The position numbers and the translations under genes are program-made. From IMG/VR virus record IMGVR_UViG_3300035665_000059, positions 1-50,165 of that record: a DNA stretch of 50,165 nucleotides. One strand, written 5' to 3'. The notes beneath the pieces were generated by a model that searched no databases, had not been told where the DNA came from, and saw only the letters and a program-made list of their open reading frames with translations. Source of the DNA: a virus. Positions 41,948 to 49,981 of this stretch are shown one piece after another. Position 1 is the stretch's first letter, and the number at the start of each line of letters is the position of its first letter.

Positions 41948-42307
41948 TTAACCAGAGATAACGCCGGTCAGATAGACAGCGGCCTTGCCGGTCAGCTTGT
42001 CTAGAATTTCATCGTCTACGGTACCACCCTTGGCAGCAATAGCAGCCTTCAGTGCAGCGATGCTGCTCTCCTTCGAGACACGCTTAGTGCCCTCTGAGCC
42101 ACCGCTTGGCTTCTTGGTATCGCCACCACTGGCTGCTTCCTTTTTTACATAGACGCCTGCTTGTACCAACACCATACGTACGCCGTTGGGGCTTTGTTCA
42201 AAAGTTTCTGCAATATCTTTGATGATTTCGGTACTGGTCTCAGGAGTGGGTTCTGCATCCTTGTATGCCTTGATTACTTGAGCCTTGGTTTCGTCGGTCC
42301 ATGCCAT
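41948..42307 (-). CDS. Small HTH-like DNA-binding protein (119 aa)
   Basis: A 119-residue protein with an N-terminal helical domain MAWTDETKAQVIKAYKDAEP, TSTEIIKDIAETFEQSPNGV and RMVLVQAGVYVKKEAA. Its Trp-led first helix and short recognition helix resemble the repeat units of the 38239 protein. A flexible Gly/Ser/Lys linker follows (SGGDTKKPSGGSEGTKRVSK), then a C-terminal helical segment. It is probably a DNA-binding protein related to the SANT-like one; function unproven. Confidence 0.7.
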   Translation of the reverse strand: MAWTDETKAQVIKAYKDAEPTPETSTEIIKDIAETFEQSPNGVRMVLVQAGVYVKKEAASGGDTKKPSGGSEGTKRVSKESSIAALKAAIAAKGGTVDDEILDKLTGKAAVYLTGVISG

Positions 42308-42633: not shown

Positions 42634-42732
42634 ACCATATTTCAACACACTATTGGCGTGATAAGATAAGAGCCATCTCGTTTAAAGGTTGCTATTACTG
42701 AGCAAACCTCCATTAATGCGCTGAAATATGGT
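42634..42732 (-). repeat. Inverted repeat directly 3' of tRNA-Thr
   Basis: An 11-bp perfect inverted repeat (42634-42644 with 42722-42732, ACCATATTTCA/TGAAATATGGT) has a 77-base loop. In the minus-strand RNA the stem begins with the discriminator and CCA of tRNA-Thr, so the tRNA end would be paired until processing. The loop holds a smaller stem (AGGTTTGCT / AGCAACCT). No gene or T-run follows, so it is not a terminator. Confidence 0.75.
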
Positions 42733-42803
42733 GCCCCCACCTGGAATCGAACTAGGAATTAATGCTTACAAGGCAATCGTTATAGCCATTTAACTATAGG
42801 GGC
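42729..42803 (-). tRNA. tRNA-Thr(UGU)
   Basis: Acceptor stem GCCCCTA/TGGGGGC, discriminator A, encoded CCA, D-stem GTTA/TAAC, anticodon loop CTTGTAA, T-loop TTCGATT. One mismatch in the anticodon stem and one in the T stem. It reads ACA and other ACN codons. Confidence 0.92.
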
Positions 42804-42808
42804 AAGTG

Positions 42809-43047
42809 GCACGACAGCCCATCCTGTTTTCGTCGTGCGCAGAGGCGGGTTCCTTTCGGGGGTGTACAGGCCCGCCAATACAAGCACTAGCCGGTTGAAT
42901 GCAGCCGACCAGTCTTCTTTATCAGTGAAGTGCTAGTATTTTATAAACACACCGGGGACCACGGTGCGCACCGTACGGCCTGACCCGCGGAAGGTGTCTC
43001 GAGAATACTCCGCATATATGTATTAAGTGGCGGTGTGTTTATAAAAT
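42809..43047 (-). ncRNA. Structured non-coding segment of unknown identity
   Basis: No ORF or tRNA fits this stretch, yet it is an almost continuous series of stems. They are 42809-42815/42832-42838 (7 bp), 42844-42849/42871-42876 (6 bp), 42886-42894/42905-42913 (9 bp with wobble) or the alternative 42879-42888/42929-42938, and the 17-bp stem 42938-42954/43031-43047 with inner hairpins. On the minus strand it directly follows the tmRNA tag domain and precedes tRNA-Thr. It may be the 3' domain (pseudoknots) of the tmRNA coding piece or an independent RNA. I see no ribozyme core I recognise. Confidence 0.6.
42938..43047 (-). repeat. 17-bp perfect inverted repeat with 76-base loop
   Basis: Arms 42938-42954 and 43031-43047 (ATTTTATAAACACACCG and complement). 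The loop contains a GCGGAG/CTTCCGC stem and the palindrome ACGGTGCGCACCGT (42961-42974). It immediately follows hairpin P5 of the tmRNA on the minus strand. Confidence 0.85.
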
Positions 43048-43400
43048 GCCACATGATTTGTAACAAGGACATGTGGCCAAACCTTGGCTCAGCTAGTTTT
43101 TTAGGCTGCTAGAGCGTAAACGCTGTCGTTTGCATTTAAGTTTTTTGCTGTTTCGGATTGAGAAACCCCAACCCTACGGCTGTCGCATTGCCGAGTTGCC
43201 GTCTTCACTATCTCACGCTGTCGAAACCACGTCCGGCCCATTAGAAAGTAGTTTGACAGAAGATCGCCCCAATTGGCTGCTGGCCGCTTCTGATTAGGGC
43301 TGCCACACCCGTGAACTAACAAACTACTTTCTGGTGGACCGGGGCGGGAATGATCCGCCGTCCAACATGCCTTCGATCTGACAGAATTACAACCATATTC
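43048..43400 (-). ncRNA. ssrA: Circularly permuted two-piece tmRNA
   Basis: Ribosome-rescue RNA with the acceptor piece placed before the coding piece. Acceptor piece: a T-arm (GGCGG-ATCATTC-CCGCC) and CCGGTCC-A-CCA, with the 3' end at 43332. Coding piece: starts at 43239 with GGGCCGG, which pairs with CCGGTCC to give a 7-bp acceptor stem with the G3.U70 pair and A73 that alanyl-tRNA synthetase needs. The conserved D-loop TGGTTTCGACA follows (43229-43219), then pseudoknot PK1 (43173-43150; GGTTG/CAATC and GTTTC/GAAAC) and the tag reading frame GCA...TAA (43133-43101) coding ANDSVYALAA. Hairpin P5 is 43077-43070/43055-43048. The 43240-43331 spacer is excised. The acceptor-piece 5' end and coding-piece 3' end are not certain. 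Confidence 0.92.
43243..43332 (-). repeat. 13-bp stem closing the tmRNA intervening segment
   Basis: A perfect inverted repeat 43243-43255 with 43320-43332 (AGAAAGTAGTTTG/CAAACTACTTTCT). In the precursor it stacks on the acceptor stem: CCGGTCC-ACC-stem-loop-stem-AAT-GGGCCGG. It holds the two tmRNA pieces together before processing. The loop includes a GGCAGCC..GGCCAGCAGCC GC-rich region. Confidence 0.9.
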
Positions 43401-43499
43401 TACTACAATCGGGACTCGAACCCGTATGCGACCCGTTCTTCCTGGCCTGTCTACTCTGTATCCGGATTTAGGAGTAAACTATCGGTGTTCCAGTGTAGT
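43401..43499 (-). tRNA. Aberrant tRNA-like element (no normal anticodon arm)
   Basis: A canonical T-arm (CGGG-TTCGAGT-CCCG) and a six-base-pair acceptor stem (ACTACA/TGTAGT) are present, but the 99-base span has no 5-7-5 anticodon arm. The middle folds as CTGG/CCAG around an 8-bp stem (GTTTACTC/GAGTAGAC) with a 15-base loop. CCA is not encoded. It could be a decayed class II tRNA, a D-armless tRNA, or part of the leader of the tmRNA acceptor piece, which starts next to it. Confidence 0.5.
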
Positions 43500-43515
43500 C
43501 GGCTAAGTAGTGGTA

Positions 43516-45758: not shown

Positions 45759-45846
45759 TGGTACCCCCGGCCGGACTCGAACCGGCACGCACATAGTCGG
45801 CGAGGGATTTTAAGTCCCTTGTGTCTACCAATTCCACCACAGGGGC
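45759..45846 (-). tRNA. tRNA-Leu(UAA)
   Basis: Class II tRNA. Acceptor GCCCCTG/CGGGGGT, discriminator A and encoded CCA, D-loop with TTGGTAGAC, anticodon arm AGGGA-CTTAAAA-TCCCT, long variable arm, T-arm GCCGG-TTCGAGT-CCGGC. Confidence 0.96.
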
Positions 45847-45851
45847 GTACA

Positions 45852-46253
45852 TCAGGCAATGACGTCGTGATAGAACATACACAGCAAATTGCCTACAATG
45901 GTATCATCATGACCATAACGAACAGGAACCATGACGGTATTTCCATTGACAAAACGATCTACTGCTAGTTCTGCACCAATCTTCTTGTTGAAGCTGTCTT
46001 TGGGTGAGCAATATGCCAGAGCAACCTCTACCATACGAGTGTTACGCCAGTTGCTGCACTTGCGATAAGCAATTGTAACACCGCCACGATTGTCGTGACG
46101 ATTATAACCATGACAAATTCGAAGGTCTAAATCTTCTATGTCGTCTAGGTAGGTGTTGGTATACATAGGGGTTGGATTGATTGGAAAAGGCCAGGCTTGT
46201 TGTGCCTTGGGAAAGTCAATCTTGTTACGGGTGTTTGTTTGGTAAATTATCAT
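45852..46253 (-). CDS. Hypothetical protein (133 aa)
   Basis: The frame extends 51 bases upstream towards tRNA-Asp, but the ATG at 46253 is the first sensible start; no strong ribosome site is visible. Product: MIIYQTNTRNKIDFPKAQQA, DIEDLDLRICHGYNRHDNRG, then GVTIAYRKCSNWRNTRMVEV, VDRFVNGNTVMVPVRYGHDD. Beta-rich, with an NRGG motif that recalls small phage early proteins. Not recognised. It lies between tRNA-Asp and tRNA-Leu, and its stop is only six bases before tRNA-Leu. Confidence 0.75.
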   Translation of the reverse strand: MIIYQTNTRNKIDFPKAQQAWPFPINPTPMYTNTYLDDIEDLDLRICHGYNRHDNRGGVTIAYRKCSNWRNTRMVEVALAYCSPKDSFNKKIGAELAVDRFVNGNTVMVPVRYGHDDTIVGNLLCMFYHDVIA

Positions 46254-46271
46254 GGTGATGTTGTGGTTAGT

Positions 46272-46346
46272 TGGCGGCCTCAAGGGGAATCGAACCCCTG
46301 CCATCGCCGTGACAGGGCGACATTCTTGCCGTTAAACTATGAAGCC
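46272..46346 (-). tRNA. tRNA-Asp(GUC)
   Basis: Acceptor GGCTTCA/TGAGGCC, discriminator G, encoded CCA, anticodon arm TCGCC-CTGTCAC-GGCGA, T-arm AGGGG-TTCGATT-CCCCT. Confidence 0.96.
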
Positions 46347-46504
46347 GACTTATTCCAAGCTGCTTGGATTTGTTCATAGACTTGTTCAAACTGTTGTAGA
46401 GTACAGCCAGTACTTTTCATTACAAAAGTTCGAAGTTGTTCGCCTACCATGTTTAGGTCCAATGCAGTCACGATTGTTTTGAAGACAAAGTATTCATTAT
46501 CCAT
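46337..46504 (-). CDS. Micro-protein ending inside tRNA-Asp (55 aa)
   Basis: A short reading frame not covered by longer genes: MDNEYFVFKTIVTALDLNMV, then EQLRTFVMKSTGCTLQQFEQ and VYEQIQAAWNKSAS. The composition is normal for a helical protein. Its TAG stop lies in the first ten bases of tRNA-Asp. The start is close to the -10 box at 46507, so the exact initiation site is doubtful. A real gene is likely because a consensus promoter sits directly upstream. Confidence 0.65.
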   Translation of the reverse strand: MDNEYFVFKTIVTALDLNMVGEQLRTFVMKSTGCTLQQFEQVYEQIQAAWNKSAS

Positions 46505-46506
46505 AT

Positions 46507-46535
46507 ATTATAGTCCAAATAACACAACACTTCAA
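46507..46535 (-). promoter_or_regulatory. Promoter within the tRNA cluster
   Basis: On the minus strand, TTGAAG (46530-46535) and TATAAT (46507-46512) with a 17-bp spacer, preceded by AATTTTTGAC. It drives the 55-residue ORF, tRNA-Asp, the 133-residue gene and tRNA-Leu. Confidence 0.88.
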
Positions 46536-46549
46536 GTCAAAAATTAAAT

Positions 46550-46625
46550 TGGTCCACTCTCTTGGAATCGAACCAAGTCCCCTGGATTTTCAGTCCAGTG
46601 TACGCACCAGCTATACCAAAAGTGG
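46550..46625 (-). tRNA. tRNA-Phe(GAA)
   Basis: Acceptor CCACTTT/AGAGTGG, discriminator A, encoded CCA, anticodon arm CTGGA-CTGAAAA-TCCAG, T-arm CTTGG-TTCGATT-CCAAG. One base separates it from tRNA-Val. Confidence 0.96.
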
Positions 46626-46626
46626 T

Positions 46627-46701
46627 TGGTAGGATGTGACGGACTCGAACCGCCGACAGTCGTCTTGTAAGGGCGATGTTCTACCACTGAACTAACATCC
46701 T
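46627..46701 (-). tRNA. tRNA-Val(UAC)
   Basis: Acceptor AGGATGT/ACATCCT, discriminator A, encoded CCA, anticodon loop CTTACAA with one mismatch in the stem (30-40), T-loop TTCGAGT. Confidence 0.95.
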
Positions 46702-46702
46702 A

Positions 46703-46781
46703 TGGAGCGGGCAGGGAGAGTCGAACTCCGCGTTCTTCAGCTTGGAAGGCTGTTGGTGGCCCCTTCACCTTGTCTGCCCGC
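46703..46781 (-). tRNA. tRNA-Gly(UCC)
   Basis: Acceptor GCGGGCA/TGCCCGC, discriminator T, encoded CCA, anticodon loop CTTCCAA, T-loop TTCGACT. The D-arm is atypical (GGTG/CACC with loop AAGGGGC) and the gene is 79 bases long. A short ORF ends inside it. Confidence 0.92.
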
Positions 46782-46874
46782 AAGTACCTCTTCAACCTCA
46801 ACAAAGTTGTGGTCGTCAAAACTCCACAACAGGTAGCTTTGTGGAGTGTCATCAAAAATCTTTATTACGTCCAT
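46737..46874 (-). CDS. Micro-protein ending inside tRNA-Gly (45 aa)
   Basis: A small frame with a good ribosome site (CTAAGGATTTA before ATG) fills the gap between tRNA-His and tRNA-Gly: MDVIKIFDDTPQSYLLWSFD, DHNFVEVEEVLAGRQGEGAT. The last 14 or so codons use tRNA-Gly sequence and the TGA lies just after its anticodon, so the product has a C-terminus dictated by the tRNA. Acidic with aromatic residues. Function unknown; it would be lost from a purely length-filtered annotation. Confidence 0.55.
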   Translation of the reverse strand: MDVIKIFDDTPQSYLLWSFDDHNFVEVEEVLAGRQGEGATNSLPS

Positions 46875-46888
46875 ATTAAATCCTTAGG

Positions 46889-46960
46889 GGTGACCTACGA
46901 GACTCGAACTCGTACCCCCACAGTCACAATGTGAGGTGCTGACCATTACACCAAGGTCAC
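46889..46960 (-). tRNA. tRNA-His(GUG)
   Basis: Acceptor GTGACCT/AGGTCAC, discriminator C, anticodon arm TCACA-TTGTGAC-TGTGG, T-arm ACGAG-TTCGAGT-CTCGT. CCA is not encoded (C-C-C-T follows). The base before position 1 is C, so the usual encoded G-1 opposite C73 is missing. Confidence 0.93.
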
Positions 46961-46971
46961 GCCTAAGGATT

Positions 46972-47046
46972 TGGAGCCACCGGAGAGACTCGAACTCCCG
47001 ACCACTACGTTCGTAGCGTAATGCTCTTCCACTGAGCTACGGTGAC
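46972..47046 (-). tRNA. tRNA-Arg(ACG)
   Basis: Acceptor GTCACCG/CGGTGGC, discriminator T, encoded CCA, anticodon arm TTACG-CTACGAA-CGTAG, T-loop TTCGAGT. A34 needs conversion to inosine by the host deaminase. Confidence 0.95.
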
Positions 47047-47047
47047 C

Positions 47048-47121
47048 TGGAAACCCCTCAGAGAATCGAACTCTGGTGTTCAGATTTGCAATCTGCTGCC
47101 TAACCTCTTGGCTAAGGGGTT
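47048..47121 (-). tRNA. tRNA-Cys(GCA)
   Basis: Acceptor AACCCCT/AGGGGTT, discriminator T, encoded CCA, anticodon loop TTGCAAA, T-arm CAGAG-TTCGATT-CTCTG. One base from tRNA-Arg. Confidence 0.95.
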
Positions 47122-47154
47122 ATTAGAATGTTACTTCTTACATAATTTTCTTTG

Positions 47155-47244
47155 TGGCGGAAGTGGAGAGAGTCGAACTCCCAAGGCTGTTTCCAACTCG
47201 GCTGTTTTCAAGACAGTTTTCGTCGCCAATCGATTTGCACTTCC
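47155..47244 (-). tRNA. tRNA-Ser(UGA)
   Basis: Class II. Acceptor GGAAGTG/CACTTCC, discriminator G, encoded CCA, anticodon loop CTTGAAA, long variable arm, T-arm GGGAG-TTCGACT-CTCTC-type. Confidence 0.95.
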
Positions 47245-47251
47245 CTTTGGG

Positions 47252-47322
47252 TTCCGATTACGGACTCGAACCGCAACTTCAAGGTTTTGGAGACCTGACG
47301 ACTAGCCATTGTCTTAATCGGA
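47252..47322 (-). tRNA. tRNA-Trp(CCA)
   Basis: Acceptor TCCGATT/AATCGGA, discriminator A, anticodon loop CTCCAAA, T-arm TGCGG-TTCGAGT-CCGTA. The 3' end reads A-CCC-A, so a proper CCA is not encoded. Confidence 0.94.
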
Positions 47323-47374
47323 AGCTGTATTTGGCAGTGACATTTTCATCAAAAAATTTTTTTGATGAAGTTTG

Positions 47375-47557
47375 TTATTGTGTACTGCTTATACTAATCT
47401 TAGCTGCTTCTGGGGTTGCTACGATAGGGGCGTCGTGCGCGCAGGTTCTAAAAAACCTTCCATCATAGGCAATAACTGGTTGTCCACATTCATAACAAAT
47501 AAATAGTGGATTTTCCATTTGTTTATTGTTAGCCTCTTGAGCCTGTGAAGTAATCAT
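47375..47557 (-). CDS. Small zinc-ribbon-like protein (60 aa)
   Basis: Contains a two-knuckle pattern: FICYECGQPVIAYDGRFFRT followed by CAHDAP (Cys, Cys, then Cys and His), suggesting a single small zinc-binding site. An N-terminal extension before MENPLF is Asn/Gln-rich, and the internal ATG at 47515 is an alternative start. It lies between tRNA-Trp and tRNA-Ser(GCU). Many phages carry such small Zn proteins near their tRNAs; function unknown. Confidence 0.65.
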   Translation of the reverse strand: MITSQAQEANNKQMENPLFICYECGQPVIAYDGRFFRTCAHDAPIVATPEAAKISISSTQ

Positions 47558-47632
47558 TTTGAAGCAGCCCTTACAGGCTCCGTGGCCAGAAAAAATTTGT
47601 TCATACTATTACCCTTTGTTACTTAAAAAATT

Positions 47633-47724
47633 TGGCAGTGAGTGAGGGATTCGAACCCTCGGACCCTGTTTCCAGAATCTCTTTCTTAGCAGGAAAGTGA
47701 TTTAAACCGCTCATCCAACTCACT
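47633..47724 (-). tRNA. tRNA-Ser(GCU)
   Basis: Class II. Acceptor AGTGAGT/ACTCACT, discriminator G, encoded CCA, anticodon arm CTTTC-CTGCTAA-GAAAG, variable arm with TTCTGGAAACAG, T-arm GAGGG-TTCGAAT-CCCTC. Confidence 0.96.
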
Positions 47725-47725
47725 G

Positions 47726-47800
47726 TGGTGGTTAAGGCTGGATTCGAACCAACGACCCCGACCGTATGAAGGTCTTGCACTACCGCTGTGCTACATAACC
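47726..47800 (-). tRNA. tRNA-Met(CAU), elongator-like or Ile2
   Basis: Acceptor GGTTATG/CTTAACC with one T.T mismatch, discriminator A, encoded CCA, anticodon loop TTCATAC, T-arm GTTGG-TTCGAAT-CCAGC-type. It lacks the three G-C pairs of initiator tRNA. If C34 is changed to lysidine it would read AUA. Confidence 0.9.
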
Positions 47801-47808
47801 AGATTGTT

Positions 47809-47883
47809 TGGCTCCACAGGCAGGGATCGAACCTACGACCAATTGATTAACAGTCAACTGCACTACCGCTGTGCTACTGTGGA
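47809..47883 (-). tRNA. tRNA-Asn(GUU)
   Basis: Acceptor TCCACAG/CTGTGGA, discriminator G, encoded CCA, anticodon arm TTGA-CTGTTAA-TCAA, T-loop TTCGATC. D-arm sequence (AGCACAGCGGTAGTGC) matches that of tRNA-Met(CAU) next to it, a sign of shared origin or conversion. Confidence 0.95.
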
Positions 47884-47893
47884 AATGTATTCT

Positions 47894-48103
47894 TTAATCT
47901 TCGTCTTCGTCTTCCATACCCTGATGGTACTTGGCAGCTTTGACAATGTCTTCTGTTACGGTATCATAGTCCTCATTGTAGATAAAACTAACGATTTGTG
48001 CCATGTCCTCTGCCCAAGAGATAAACTGCGTGGGCTTGTCAAGGGTAGGAGACATTTCCCCAAGATGTTCAATTGTCCGCTCATAGCTCTTTGTGTAGTA
48101 CAT
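47894..48103 (-). CDS. Hypothetical acidic protein (69 aa)
   Basis: A 69-residue acidic protein (YYTKSYERTIEHLGEMSPTL, FISWAEDMAQIVSFIYNEDY, DIVKAAKYHQGMEDEDED). It has a good ribosome site (AAAAGGAAATAG) and is helical. The extremely acidic C-terminus and Tyr-rich N-terminus recall DNA-mimic or inhibitor proteins, but this is only a resemblance. It follows the deaminase-like gene by 14 bases and precedes tRNA-Asn. Confidence 0.75.
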   Translation of the reverse strand: MYYTKSYERTIEHLGEMSPTLDKPTQFISWAEDMAQIVSFIYNEDYDTVTEDIVKAAKYHQGMEDEDED

Positions 48104-48117
48104 TTAACTATTTCCTT

Positions 48118-48426
48118 TTAGGTGTGTTCAACTATTTCGATACCAGCCGATCTAATGGCACTACTACACACTACACACGGCCGAGCCGTGGCCGGGGAAC
48201 CGTCTTCCAAAAACCGAAATATCTTCATTGAATGCGCCTTACTCAAGTCACGGCACAGTGAGATTGCATGAATCTCTGCATGAAGAAACACACGGTGGGG
48301 TTCCCCGGCCAGTTTAGCGTGGGCTGCTTGAAGTGGGTGAGTTTTGATGTAACTGTTCTTACCCACACTCATCACTCTACCACGCTTGTCATAAATTATT
48401 GCAGTGATGTTGTATCGTTTCGTCAT
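48118..48426 (-). CDS. Deoxycytidylate-deaminase-like protein (102 aa)
   Basis: A zinc-dependent cytidine/dCMP deaminase fold: H49-A50-E51 (FLHAEIHAI) supplies a zinc ligand and the proton shuttle, and PCVVC (83-87) supplies two Cys ligands. At 102 residues it is much shorter than T4 dCMP deaminase (193) and lacks the regulatory insert, so substrate (dCMP, dC or RNA) is not certain. A dCMP-to-dUMP step would feed ThyX. The start lies six bases after a -10 box, directly after the upstream stop (TAGATG), so the mRNA from that promoter would be leaderless. Confidence 0.82.
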   Translation of the reverse strand: MTKRYNITAIIYDKRGRVMSVGKNSYIKTHPLQAAHAKLAGEPHRVFLHAEIHAISLCRDLSKAHSMKIFRFLEDGSPATARPCVVCSSAIRSAGIEIVEHT

Positions 48427-48642
48427 CTAATCATTATACGGCTTTGGCTGTGACTTTTCAATATAAGTTTTTTCACAGTCTTCGAGTGGTTCTTGAAAGT
48501 ACTCAGCCTTCATGACCACACTCTTGTATTCTCGTGCATGTATAGCGCGCTCTGCCGCTTCACAGCTGGAGAGGTTGTCAAAAACACAACGCCCACGTTC
48601 ACCGTACTTGTATTTGTTATTATTGCACTTGTAGCATGGCAT
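48427..48642 (-). CDS. Hypothetical Cys-containing protein (71 aa)
   Basis: Starts MPCYKCNNNKYKYGERGRCV with a CxxC knuckle and a third Cys at 19. The centre has NLSSCEAAERAIHAREYKSV and the end is EKSQPKPYND. Possibly a zinc-binding micro-domain followed by a helical part. The last codons contain the -10 box of the deaminase promoter. The stop (TAG) is followed directly by the deaminase ATG. Function unknown. Confidence 0.75.
   Translation of the reverse strand: MPCYKCNNNKYKYGERGRCVFDNLSSCEAAERAIHAREYKSVVMKAEYFQEPLEDCEKTYIEKSQPKPYND
48433..48461 (-). promoter_or_regulatory. Promoter inside the 48427 gene
   Basis: On the minus strand, TTGAAA (48456-48461) and TATAAT (48433-48438) with a 17-bp spacer. 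The upstream AATTTTG box is not conserved (ACTTATA instead). It overlaps coding sequence and serves the deaminase-like gene, with +1 close to its ATG. Confidence 0.8.
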
Positions 48643-48650
48643 ACTATCTC

Positions 48651-49031
48651 CTACAGTTGACTCATATAAAAGTTGTGGACTGCTTGTTCACTATCCTGAA
48701 CACCTAAGTGGGCGGCAAAAGCCTTCAAGAGGTCGCGTTCCTGATCCATATCAAAGATTGAATTGTGTAGGGCCAGGTATCCAGCCATCTGTGCCTGTGC
48801 ATAGCTTTCAGGACCAAAACCAAATACGTCATATAGTACGTATCGGTAGGTGCCACGTTCTTCAATCTCGCCACGGTGGATGCGACGCACGACCGCACAG
48901 AAGGCCTTCAACTGATCTTCTTTAGTGAGTGAGTTCCAGTAGGACTCCTGCTCGTGTTCAATAGCACTCATGTCTTGGTTAAATATGTCACTGATTTCGT
49001 ACAATGCTTTTCCTAATTCTTGCTGTTCCAT
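48651..49031 (-). CDS. Hypothetical protein (126 aa)
   Basis: A helical 126-residue acidic protein (EQQELGKALYEISDIFNQDM, ESYWNSLTKEDQLKAFCAVV, RIHRGEIEERGTYRYVLYDV, FGFGPESYAQAQMAGYLALH). This pattern (LTxEDQLxxFxAVxxRIxxGElxxxGSYRxVLYD) is recurrent in phage early regions but has no function I know. Good ribosome site (AAGGAAAATC). Located between the tRNA-Met/Ile-like genes and the Cys protein. Confidence 0.8.
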   Translation of the reverse strand: MEQQELGKALYEISDIFNQDMSAIEHEQESYWNSLTKEDQLKAFCAVVRRIHRGEIEERGTYRYVLYDVFGFGPESYAQAQMAGYLALHNSIFDMDQERDLLKAFAAHLGVQDSEQAVHNFYMSQL

Positions 49032-49044
49032 GATTTTCCTTGTT

Positions 49045-49121
49045 TGGTAGGCTGTGTTGGGCTCGAACCAACGACTAACCGATTATGAGTCGGCTACTCT
49101 GACCAACTGAGTTAACAGCCC
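49045..49121 (-). tRNA. tRNA-Met(CAU), second copy (Met or Ile2)
   Basis: Acceptor GGGCTGT/ACAGCCT (G1.T72), discriminator A, encoded CCA, D-stem ACTC/GAGT, anticodon arm GCCGA-CTCATAA-TCGGT, T-arm GTTGG-TTCGAGC-CCAAC. Different from the tRNA at 47726. One of the two may be the lysidine-type Ile tRNA. Confidence 0.93.
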
Positions 49122-49126
49122 GGTTT

Positions 49127-49229
49127 TGGTAGAAGGGGTGGGAATCGAACCCACATTACTCCGCCTTATCTAGACGGTGCTCTACGAGTGTATAAGGCTC
49201 GCCCTTAGGCCAATATTAGCAACCCTTCC
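49127..49229 (-). tRNA. tRNA-like gene with D-loop insertion (Ile GAU-type loop, A33)
   Basis: The acceptor (GGAAGGG/CCCTTCT), T-arm (GTGGG-TTCGATT-CCCAC), discriminator A and CCA are normal. The anticodon stem CCGTC/GGCGG is good, but its loop is TAGATAA, with A in place of the universal U33; the anticodon would be GAU. The D-arm starts GCTA-ATATTGG and ends TA-GAGC, with about 25 extra bases between, including a perfect TAAGG-GCGAG-CCTTA hairpin. At 103 bases it is too long for a class I tRNA. It may be a decayed or specialised Ile tRNA. Confidence 0.6.
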
Positions 49230-49429
49230 ATAAGTTACCACACGTTAAAATGATCTTCTGCGTTACAGCGCAATCTCCCACTTGTACAGGGCGATACATT
49301 TGTGTGGTAACTTATAGAGAGTAGATACTACTACATGCTGGTTACACTGTCCAGTCAATACCGTTACGCTAGTGAAGCATCCTAGTCACCAATAGTAGCT
49401 TTATAGGTTCAGTGGATTGGTTACCACAC
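49230..49429 (-). ncRNA. Structured non-coding segment with three copies of a 10-base arm
   Basis: GTTACCACAC occurs at 49234-49243 and 49420-49429, and its complement lies between at 49302-49311. The first pair extends to a 14-bp perfect stem (49230-49243/49302-49315) enclosing 58 bases; the other pairing would enclose about 108 bases. Inside are smaller stems (TTGCG/CGCAG, TGTA/TACA, CCAAT/ATTGG, CTGG/CCAG). No ORF and no standard tRNA is present. The element abuts the 5' end of the aberrant Ile-like tRNA. Confidence 0.6.
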
Positions 49430-49441
49430 TCTACTCAAAAT

Positions 49442-49516
49442 TGGTTGCCAGTGCTTGAATCGAACAAGCAATAAGCGCTTATCAAGCGCCCGTTATAACC
49501 ATTTAACTAACCGGCA
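49442..49516 (-). tRNA. tRNA-Ile(GAU)
   Basis: Acceptor TGCCGGT/ACTGGCA, discriminator A, encoded CCA, D-stem GTTA/TAAC, anticodon arm GGCGC-TTGATAA-GCGCT, T-arm GCTTG-TTCGATT-CAAGC. Confidence 0.95.
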
Positions 49517-49517
49517 A

Positions 49518-49592
49518 TGGCAGGGGATGATGGATTCGAACCACCGAATGCCTGAATCAAAATCAGGTGCCTTACCGCTTGGCGAATCCCCT
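49518..49592 (-). tRNA. tRNA-Gln(UUG)
   Basis: Acceptor AGGGGAT/ATCCCCT, discriminator G, encoded CCA, anticodon arm CCTGA-TTTTGAT-TCAGG, T-loop TTCGAAT. One base from tRNA-Ile. Confidence 0.95.
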
Positions 49593-49812
49593 ACAATACT
49601 CGTACACTATCTACACGATTCCAACAAATCCACACTGAGCTGTAGCCAAATCGCAAACTGTTGGAGTCCCGAACGCTGCAATACGGTCCGTTGATGACCT
49701 TGAAGTCACGACCTGCCATCCATTCGTTCACAGCATCTTCTGAACTCAGATAAACCCTGCCATACGCAGGAATCAATTCTAGAGGACCACTAACTTGTGC
49801 AATTGCTTCCAT
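49591..49812 (-). CDS. Hypothetical protein (73 aa)
   Basis: A 73-residue protein (MEAIAQVSGPLELIPAYGRV, YLSSEDAVNEWMAGRDFKVI, NGPYCSVRDSNSLRFGYSSV, WICWNRVDSVRVL). The order of strands suggests a small alpha/beta fold; SSEDAVNEWMAGRDFKV looks like a binding helix. A good ribosome site (CAAGGAAAAAAAATG). The TAG stop overlaps the first two bases of tRNA-Gln. Function unknown. Confidence 0.75.
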   Translation of the reverse strand: MEAIAQVSGPLELIPAYGRVYLSSEDAVNEWMAGRDFKVINGPYCSVRDSNSLRFGYSSVWICWNRVDSVRVL

Positions 49813-49832
49813 TTTTTTTCCTTGAAAGTACT

Positions 49833-49909
49833 ACCAAATATTATCACACCAGAAGAGGCGACCCTGTGGCCACAAGTTCCGGCTTATCTCTGGTGTGATA
49901 ATGTTTGGT
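49833..49909 (-). repeat. 21-bp inverted repeat (one mismatch) 3' of tRNA-Lys
   Basis: Arms 49833-49853 and 49889-49909 (core TTATCACACCAGA and its complement) with a 35-base loop that contains the palindrome TGTGGCCACA. In the minus-strand RNA the stem begins with the discriminator and CCA of tRNA-Lys, as in the tRNA-Thr hairpin. No T-run follows. Confidence 0.8.
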
Positions 49910-49981
49910 ACGGGCGGCGGGGTTCGAACCCACGACCAACGGATTAAAAGTCCGCTGCTCTACCGGCTGAGCTACACCCGC
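49906..49981 (-). tRNA. tRNA-Lys(UUU)
   Basis: Acceptor GCGGGTG/CGCCCGT, discriminator A, encoded CCA, D-arm TAGCTCAGCCGGTAGAGC, anticodon arm with CTTTTAA, T-arm GTGGG-TTCGAAC-CCCGC-type. Confidence 0.95.

Follow-up and report, generated by a model that had tools for sequence, protein, structure and literature searches.

The metagenomic virus contig IMGVR_UViG_3300035665_000059 carries a complete, circularly permuted tmRNA gene on its minus strand (within 43048-43400). Our sequence comparisons make it likely that this is a working beta-type permuted phage ssrA whose spacer serves as a slot for small RNAs, and that one of these RNAs, E2, is a probable homodimer. We refer to the whole contig (50,165 bases, perhaps a fragment) as the window. 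Its DNA polymerase shows 49% identity to T5-like phage polymerases, and the same record encodes a ribonucleotide reductase, an SbcC-like nuclease, a DnaB-type helicase and ThyX. The first 25 kb of the window had no near DNA match among 50,697 phage records, and a distant search with the tmRNA region returned tRNA-Thr as its sole match. Using ARAGORN, 16 tRNA genes were found on the tmRNA's strand between 42.7 and 50 kb, with a few more weak candidates under relaxed settings. The tmRNA gene is thus part of a phage tRNA array, in which tRNA-Thr(TGT) is its nearest tRNA neighbour (42729-42803, minus strand, identified by Rfam and ARAGORN) and which continues at 45759-49981.

The permuted two-piece architecture that had been predicted for this phage locus was recovered by two Rfam 15 covariance models and by ARAGORN, in a record that also holds phage genes and the tRNA array. 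RF04321 (tmRNA_permuted) matched positions 43394-43101 with 115.7 bits (cut-off 47, E 5.7e-22) and RF01850 (beta_tmRNA) matched 43433-43042 over its full model length (1-331 of 331) with 91.8 bits (E 1.5e-26), 8 bits above its curated cut-off of 84. ARAGORN reported a permuted tmRNA at 43424-43010 with the tag ANDSVYALAA. By these scores, the element as a whole is far beyond chance. All parts lie on the minus strand, which the original prediction left unstated. The acceptor piece (43332-43394, from the RF04321 alignment and ARAGORN) consists of a P2 strand, the T-arm GGCGG-ATCATTC-CCGCC (43343-43359), the 3' acceptor strand, A73 and an encoded CCA; its true 5' end may lie as far upstream as about 43424. 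It is followed by a spacer of 92 nt (43240-43331), whose removal is expected at precursor maturation, and by the coding piece (43049-43239), which comprises the 5' acceptor strand GGGCCGG, P2, a pseudoknot, the tag frame and the 3' domain. Both inner ends, CCA at 43332 and the coding piece start at 43239, are as originally predicted. So is the acceptor stem GGGCCGG/CCGGTCC, in which 7 of 7 pairs form and G3-U70 is present. Conserved TGGTTTCGACA of the tRNA-like domain (43219-43229), an H-type pseudoknot upstream of the resume codon (GGGTTG-gg-GTTTC-t-CAATCC-GAAAC, 43150-43174, pairing read from the sequence) and the tag frame (43101-43133, ARAGORN) were likewise found where expected. The frame has its resume codon, and the encoded ANDSVYALAA ends in hydrophobic AA before the stop. 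The predicted 13-bp stem closing the spacer is real as well: positions 43233-43255 and 43320-43342 are 87% complementary and contain a perfect helix of 12-13 bp. Further, a 3'-domain pseudoknot (CAAGG/CCTTG and CCACATG/CATGTGG, 43049-43087) holds CCTTGTTAC, which is conserved in the beta-type model.

The window's T-loop, ATCATTC, on which the original prediction did not remark, differs from the usual TTCGAYT/TTCRANY and represents a reversal of the usual T54-A58 pair. It is common only to the window, L009/L011 and L012, while most other relatives have the usual form. Some P2 positions are also mismatched. Given these two features, the window's copy could be weakened. Membership in RF04321 nevertheless stands, judged by a score far over the cut-off.

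We gathered relatives through the constant downstream neighbour of the tmRNA gene, a 119-aa DNA-binding protein of PHROG 1725 (41948-42307, minus strand), yielding 80 loci. Forty of these were testable, having at least about 5.5 kb of sequence upstream of the PHROG 1725 gene, and were analysed with ARAGORN and RF04321 combined. In 33 of these 40 loci, some of which are close kin of one another, a permuted tmRNA shares the strand of the PHROG 1725 gene and lies 0.6-5.5 kb upstream of it. The remaining seven were without it (L075 among them, by ARAGORN only). Of 47 viral records from relatives, 29 scored above the RF04321 cut-off. On this sequence evidence, most members of an uncultured T5-like phage clade carry the tmRNA gene, which can be regarded as near-core there. 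Acceptor stems covary among the relatives (GGGCCAG/CTGGTCC, GGGCCTG/CAGGTCC, GGGCCGG/CCGGTCC, GGGGCTG/CAGCTCC and GGGGGAG/CTCCTCC) while G3-U70 is constant in all five. No SmpB gene (PF01668) was found in any of 48 viral records, the single match coming from a bacterial genome searched alongside, which argues that the tmRNA depends on host SmpB. A phylum sample around genome G048 yielded no tmRNA exceeding the RF01850 cut-off; judged by their tags, the loci checked belong to the alphaproteobacterial kind.

Viral spacers are long, with a median of 74 nt compared with 31 nt for alphaproteobacterial permuted tmRNAs (p 4e-8, lengths from ARAGORN domain coordinates), the reference being alphaproteobacterial whereas the window tmRNA is beta-type. 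They are made up of recurring modules that are unrelated to one another. One module, GTCCTAGATGAAAGAAACCTC, for example, occurs in L023, L037, L039, L056 and L069 (diverging in L023), GCGATGCATAGC in L029, L035, L053 and L079, and GGTCTTGGTCGTTACC in L007, L032, L051 and L087; further modules are shared by L018/L050 and by L026/L078. E1c, the second conserved small-RNA module of the window (42882-42940, minus strand), has copies of 92-94% identity as spacers in five phages (L024, L043, L067, L070 and L074). E2 is the spacer in L130, in alpha-type tmRNAs (L136, L149, L151, L156, L163, L167 and, weakly, L077) and in the beta-type tmRNA of L172 (158.8 bits), which indicates that it moved between, or was taken up by, different tmRNA lineages. 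Neither E1c nor E2 is confined to tmRNA genes; the window has the two of them directly 3' of its tmRNA. Conserved small RNAs in the spacer and the flank were overlooked in the original prediction. Only the window's closest relatives were found to share the sequence of its own spacer. Since some relatives have spacers of 5-8 nt or are without the gene, both cargo and gene are dispensable. The tmRNAs of L014, L015 and L025 encode no CCA, and their spacers are only a few nucleotides long. Other spacers (L013, L047, L049 and that of Methylophilales phage Melnitz, L126 around 46030-46200) hold a small open reading frame that enters the tRNA-like part, and relatives of the L047 frame occur in L165, L090, L050, L148 and L088, there outside known spacers. 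The spacer of L068 (7378-7769) resembles a tRNA, with T-arm GGTTCGAATCC and a non-canonical anticodon loop.

In the window, E2 occupies 42938-43047 on the minus strand, immediately 3' of the tmRNA. It is a structured small RNA element of about 85-110 nt whose core pattern was found in 52 viral contigs, often beside or inside tmRNA and tRNA genes. Parsing of the copies gave 41 distinct elements, 40 of them complete. A covariance model, R2, recovered 41 of 42 sources in full, the remaining one ending at a contig edge, and detected E2 in six of twelve long records, one copy each. The order of elements is P1 (variable in sequence), nearly invariant CCACUUAAUACAUANAU, P2 (GCGGA/UCCGC plus two covarying pairs), hairpin P3, GGGU, hairpin P4 and P1'. 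In the structural alignment, 92.5% of cells were paired and 239 two-sided changes were counted, compared with 77 in shuffles and at most 41 with the partner slid; the alignment was fitted to the structure and so favours pairing, but the gap to the slid control far exceeds the bias we would expect. RNAalifold on a MAFFT alignment returned no covarying pair, a result of P1 and P4 being misaligned by MAFFT, which the covariance model solved. Among 34 distinct segments of hairpin P3, 29 contained a palindrome 6 nt or longer (4.2 expected, maximum of 12 in 3000 shuffles), a comparison that is not a formal probability because E2 copies are related. Eight tetramers were seen at the palindrome centres (CCGG, TCGA, CTAG, GTAC, CATG, TGCA, CGCG and GCGC). 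A stricter count of palindromic four-base loops gave 20 of 34 against 2.5 expected. Palindromes in non-E2 spacer families were left out as evidence, since chance alone is expected to produce 6-mers in a stretch of 90 nt. A self-complementary loop kept through sequence change is probably the signature of a homodimerising RNA.

E2 in the window and 10 other loci had no Rfam 15 match at E <= 1, GOLLD, ROOL and OLE included. A twister or other ribozyme was considered and rejected, there being no Rfam match. E2 likewise had no match in the 50,697 phage records, in 72,556 plasmids or in 398 genomes from the phylum sample around G048, and its core string had no match in the literature searched. E2 and the spacer cargo therefore appear to be new, whereas the tmRNA is of a known kind.

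The most serious alternative is that the spacer modules and E2 are mere processing hairpins, of the RNase III or terminator-like kind, with no role after cleavage. Long stems do close the spacer modules and E2, and stand-alone E2 copies have a U-run after P1, like intrinsic terminators. However, a terminator or processing stem needs neither the nearly invariant unpaired core of E2 nor a loop kept palindromic through many sequences, and E2 is found away from tmRNA genes as well. We consider this explanation unlikely, though it deserves real weight. Conservation suggests that spacer RNAs survive as products and that E2 dimerises. Going further, the excised spacer may be an expression slot for functional small RNAs and E2 a new self-assembling family of ~90 nt, active during infection; this fuller reading is put forward tentatively, as slightly less likely than not. 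Our preferred guess is that E2 would act as an RNA dimer binding a translation or tRNA-related host factor, as it is often located beside tRNA and tmRNA genes.

Across relatives, tags end mostly in ALAA, and ten distinct nucleotide sequences code for ANDEVFALAA, which argues that the peptide is under selection. We searched 84,980 bacterial and archaeal genomes for the exact pattern ANDxV[FY]A behind TAAATGC. Three genomes matched, corresponding to two Holosporaceae and one Clostridiaceae contig. One of the Holosporaceae matches proved to be a permuted tmRNA whose tag is longer; in the Clostridiaceae contig ARAGORN finds no tmRNA. The window tag type thus has no confirmed counterpart in these genomes for the exact pattern, which TAAACGC-like codons would escape. 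Phage tags are therefore not simply host tags; the original suggestion of a phage-specific tag is borne out to this extent and holds for the codon choice that was searched.

Conservation of the tag also weighs against the phage tmRNA being a decoy that occupies host SmpB or AlaRS and inhibits host trans-translation. Mycobacteriophage DS6A has a TLD-only RNA for which such a role has been put forward (PMC4131195 and PMC11915505 discuss it). This role would fit the lack of a phage SmpB in the searched records and an altered T-loop that could uncouple function. A decoy needs neither a tag frame nor pseudoknots, but here the tag is conserved as a peptide, mostly with its ALAA end, and we regard this role as improbable. 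Slightly more improbable still is a decaying passenger gene acquired from a host and out of use. The unusual T-loop of the window lineage, the absence of the gene from 7 of the 40 testable relatives and the modest RF01850 score would all be expected of one, but stems, CCA, G3-U70 and tag are intact in dozens of diverged phages, acceptor stems show compensatory changes and the tag varies synonymously. A bacterial ssrA joined to phage DNA by an assembly or binning artefact, conceivable for a metagenomic contig that is a virus record and perhaps a fragment, can be dismissed almost entirely, given that dozens of independent contigs carry this gene at this position and that the tag pattern is without confirmed bacterial or archaeal counterpart.

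Based on the anatomy and on established knowledge of tmRNAs, the window gene most likely serves ordinary trans-translation, for which the host would supply SmpB, AlaRS, RNase P and ClpXP. A single precursor would be transcribed from the minus strand and cut by host tRNA-processing enzymes, RNase P acting at G1 and 3' processing at CCA. The acceptor and coding pieces would stay joined via the acceptor stem and P2 while the spacer is released. Host AlaRS would charge the two-piece tmRNA through G3-U70, and the charged molecule would bind host SmpB and enter ribosomes stalled on broken mRNAs. It would then add ANDSVYALAA and free the ribosome, with ClpXP of the host also involved, and translation capacity would persist during destruction of host mRNA. 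The spacer would double as a slot, filled by a small reading frame or by a conserved small RNA of one kind or another that processing would release, and E2 probably forms homodimers through its palindromic loop. Should the spacer modules persist as stable RNAs after their release, the same transcript would give rise to an RNA that rescues ribosomes and to a second, unrelated RNA with a regulatory or structural role.

Compared with the permuted tmRNAs of betaproteobacteria (RF01850/RF04321), the window gene shares gene order, the tRNA-like domain, the pseudoknot, CCTTGTTAC and an AND...ALAA tag, but is phage-borne and has a longer spacer with cargo, distinct tags and a variant T-loop. The one-piece tmRNAs of the mycobacteriophage Bxz1 group and Bacillus phage G are phage-encoded too; they are not permuted and have no excised spacer. 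These phages are listed in PMC4131195, and PMC11915505 gives a list of 79 bacteriophage tmRNA sequences. The original prediction knew of no described permuted phage tmRNA, but the kind is not undescribed: 53 two-piece tmRNAs among 133 distinct phage tmRNAs were reported in 2022, one of them in Methylophilales phage Melnitz (PMC9004378). Rather than a first case, the window gene belongs to a large uncultured phage group in which it is near-core and carries its own tags. We re-found the Melnitz two-piece tmRNA with 113.4 bits for RF04321 and 106.7 bits for RF01849. It is likewise a permuted ssrA in a lytic phage with a long, stem-closed spacer (142 nt, ARAGORN). Melnitz differs in being a T4-like myophage; its tmRNA is alpha-type, and a glutamine riboswitch follows downstream of the tag. 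The window represents a T5-like phage with a beta-type tmRNA, and its relatives have conserved small RNAs as spacers.

In case of E2, the closest parallels are large RNAs. GOLLD and ROOL come from phages, where they lie close to tRNA islands, and GOLLD, ROOL and OLE form homo-oligomers (PMC12286853). In the OLE L9.3 loop, tetranucleotides switching between palindromes were taken as evidence for intermolecular pairing (PMC12286853), and the same argument applies to the E2 loop, which also switches between palindromes. All three are much larger than E2, which at ~85-110 nt can be a tmRNA spacer. Natural RNAs believed to homo-oligomerise are few, and E2 would be a small and tractable addition to them; its setting in phage tRNA arrays is that of GOLLD and ROOL.

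The window's tRNA array holds further elements on the minus strand. Directly upstream of the acceptor piece, a T-arm-like stretch, GGGTTCGAGTCCC (43395-43500), has no match to the Rfam tRNA model and is perhaps a decayed class II tRNA. A tRNA-Ser(TGA) at 47155-47244 appears only under relaxed ARAGORN settings and scores 36.2 bits on the tRNA-Sec model, under that model's cut-off. Elements of 80-120 nt with closing stems of 13-23 bp lie among the tRNA genes at 42634-42732, 48189-48311, 49227-49318 and 49832-49910, and those at 48189-48311 and 49227-49318 are kept in the window's close relatives.
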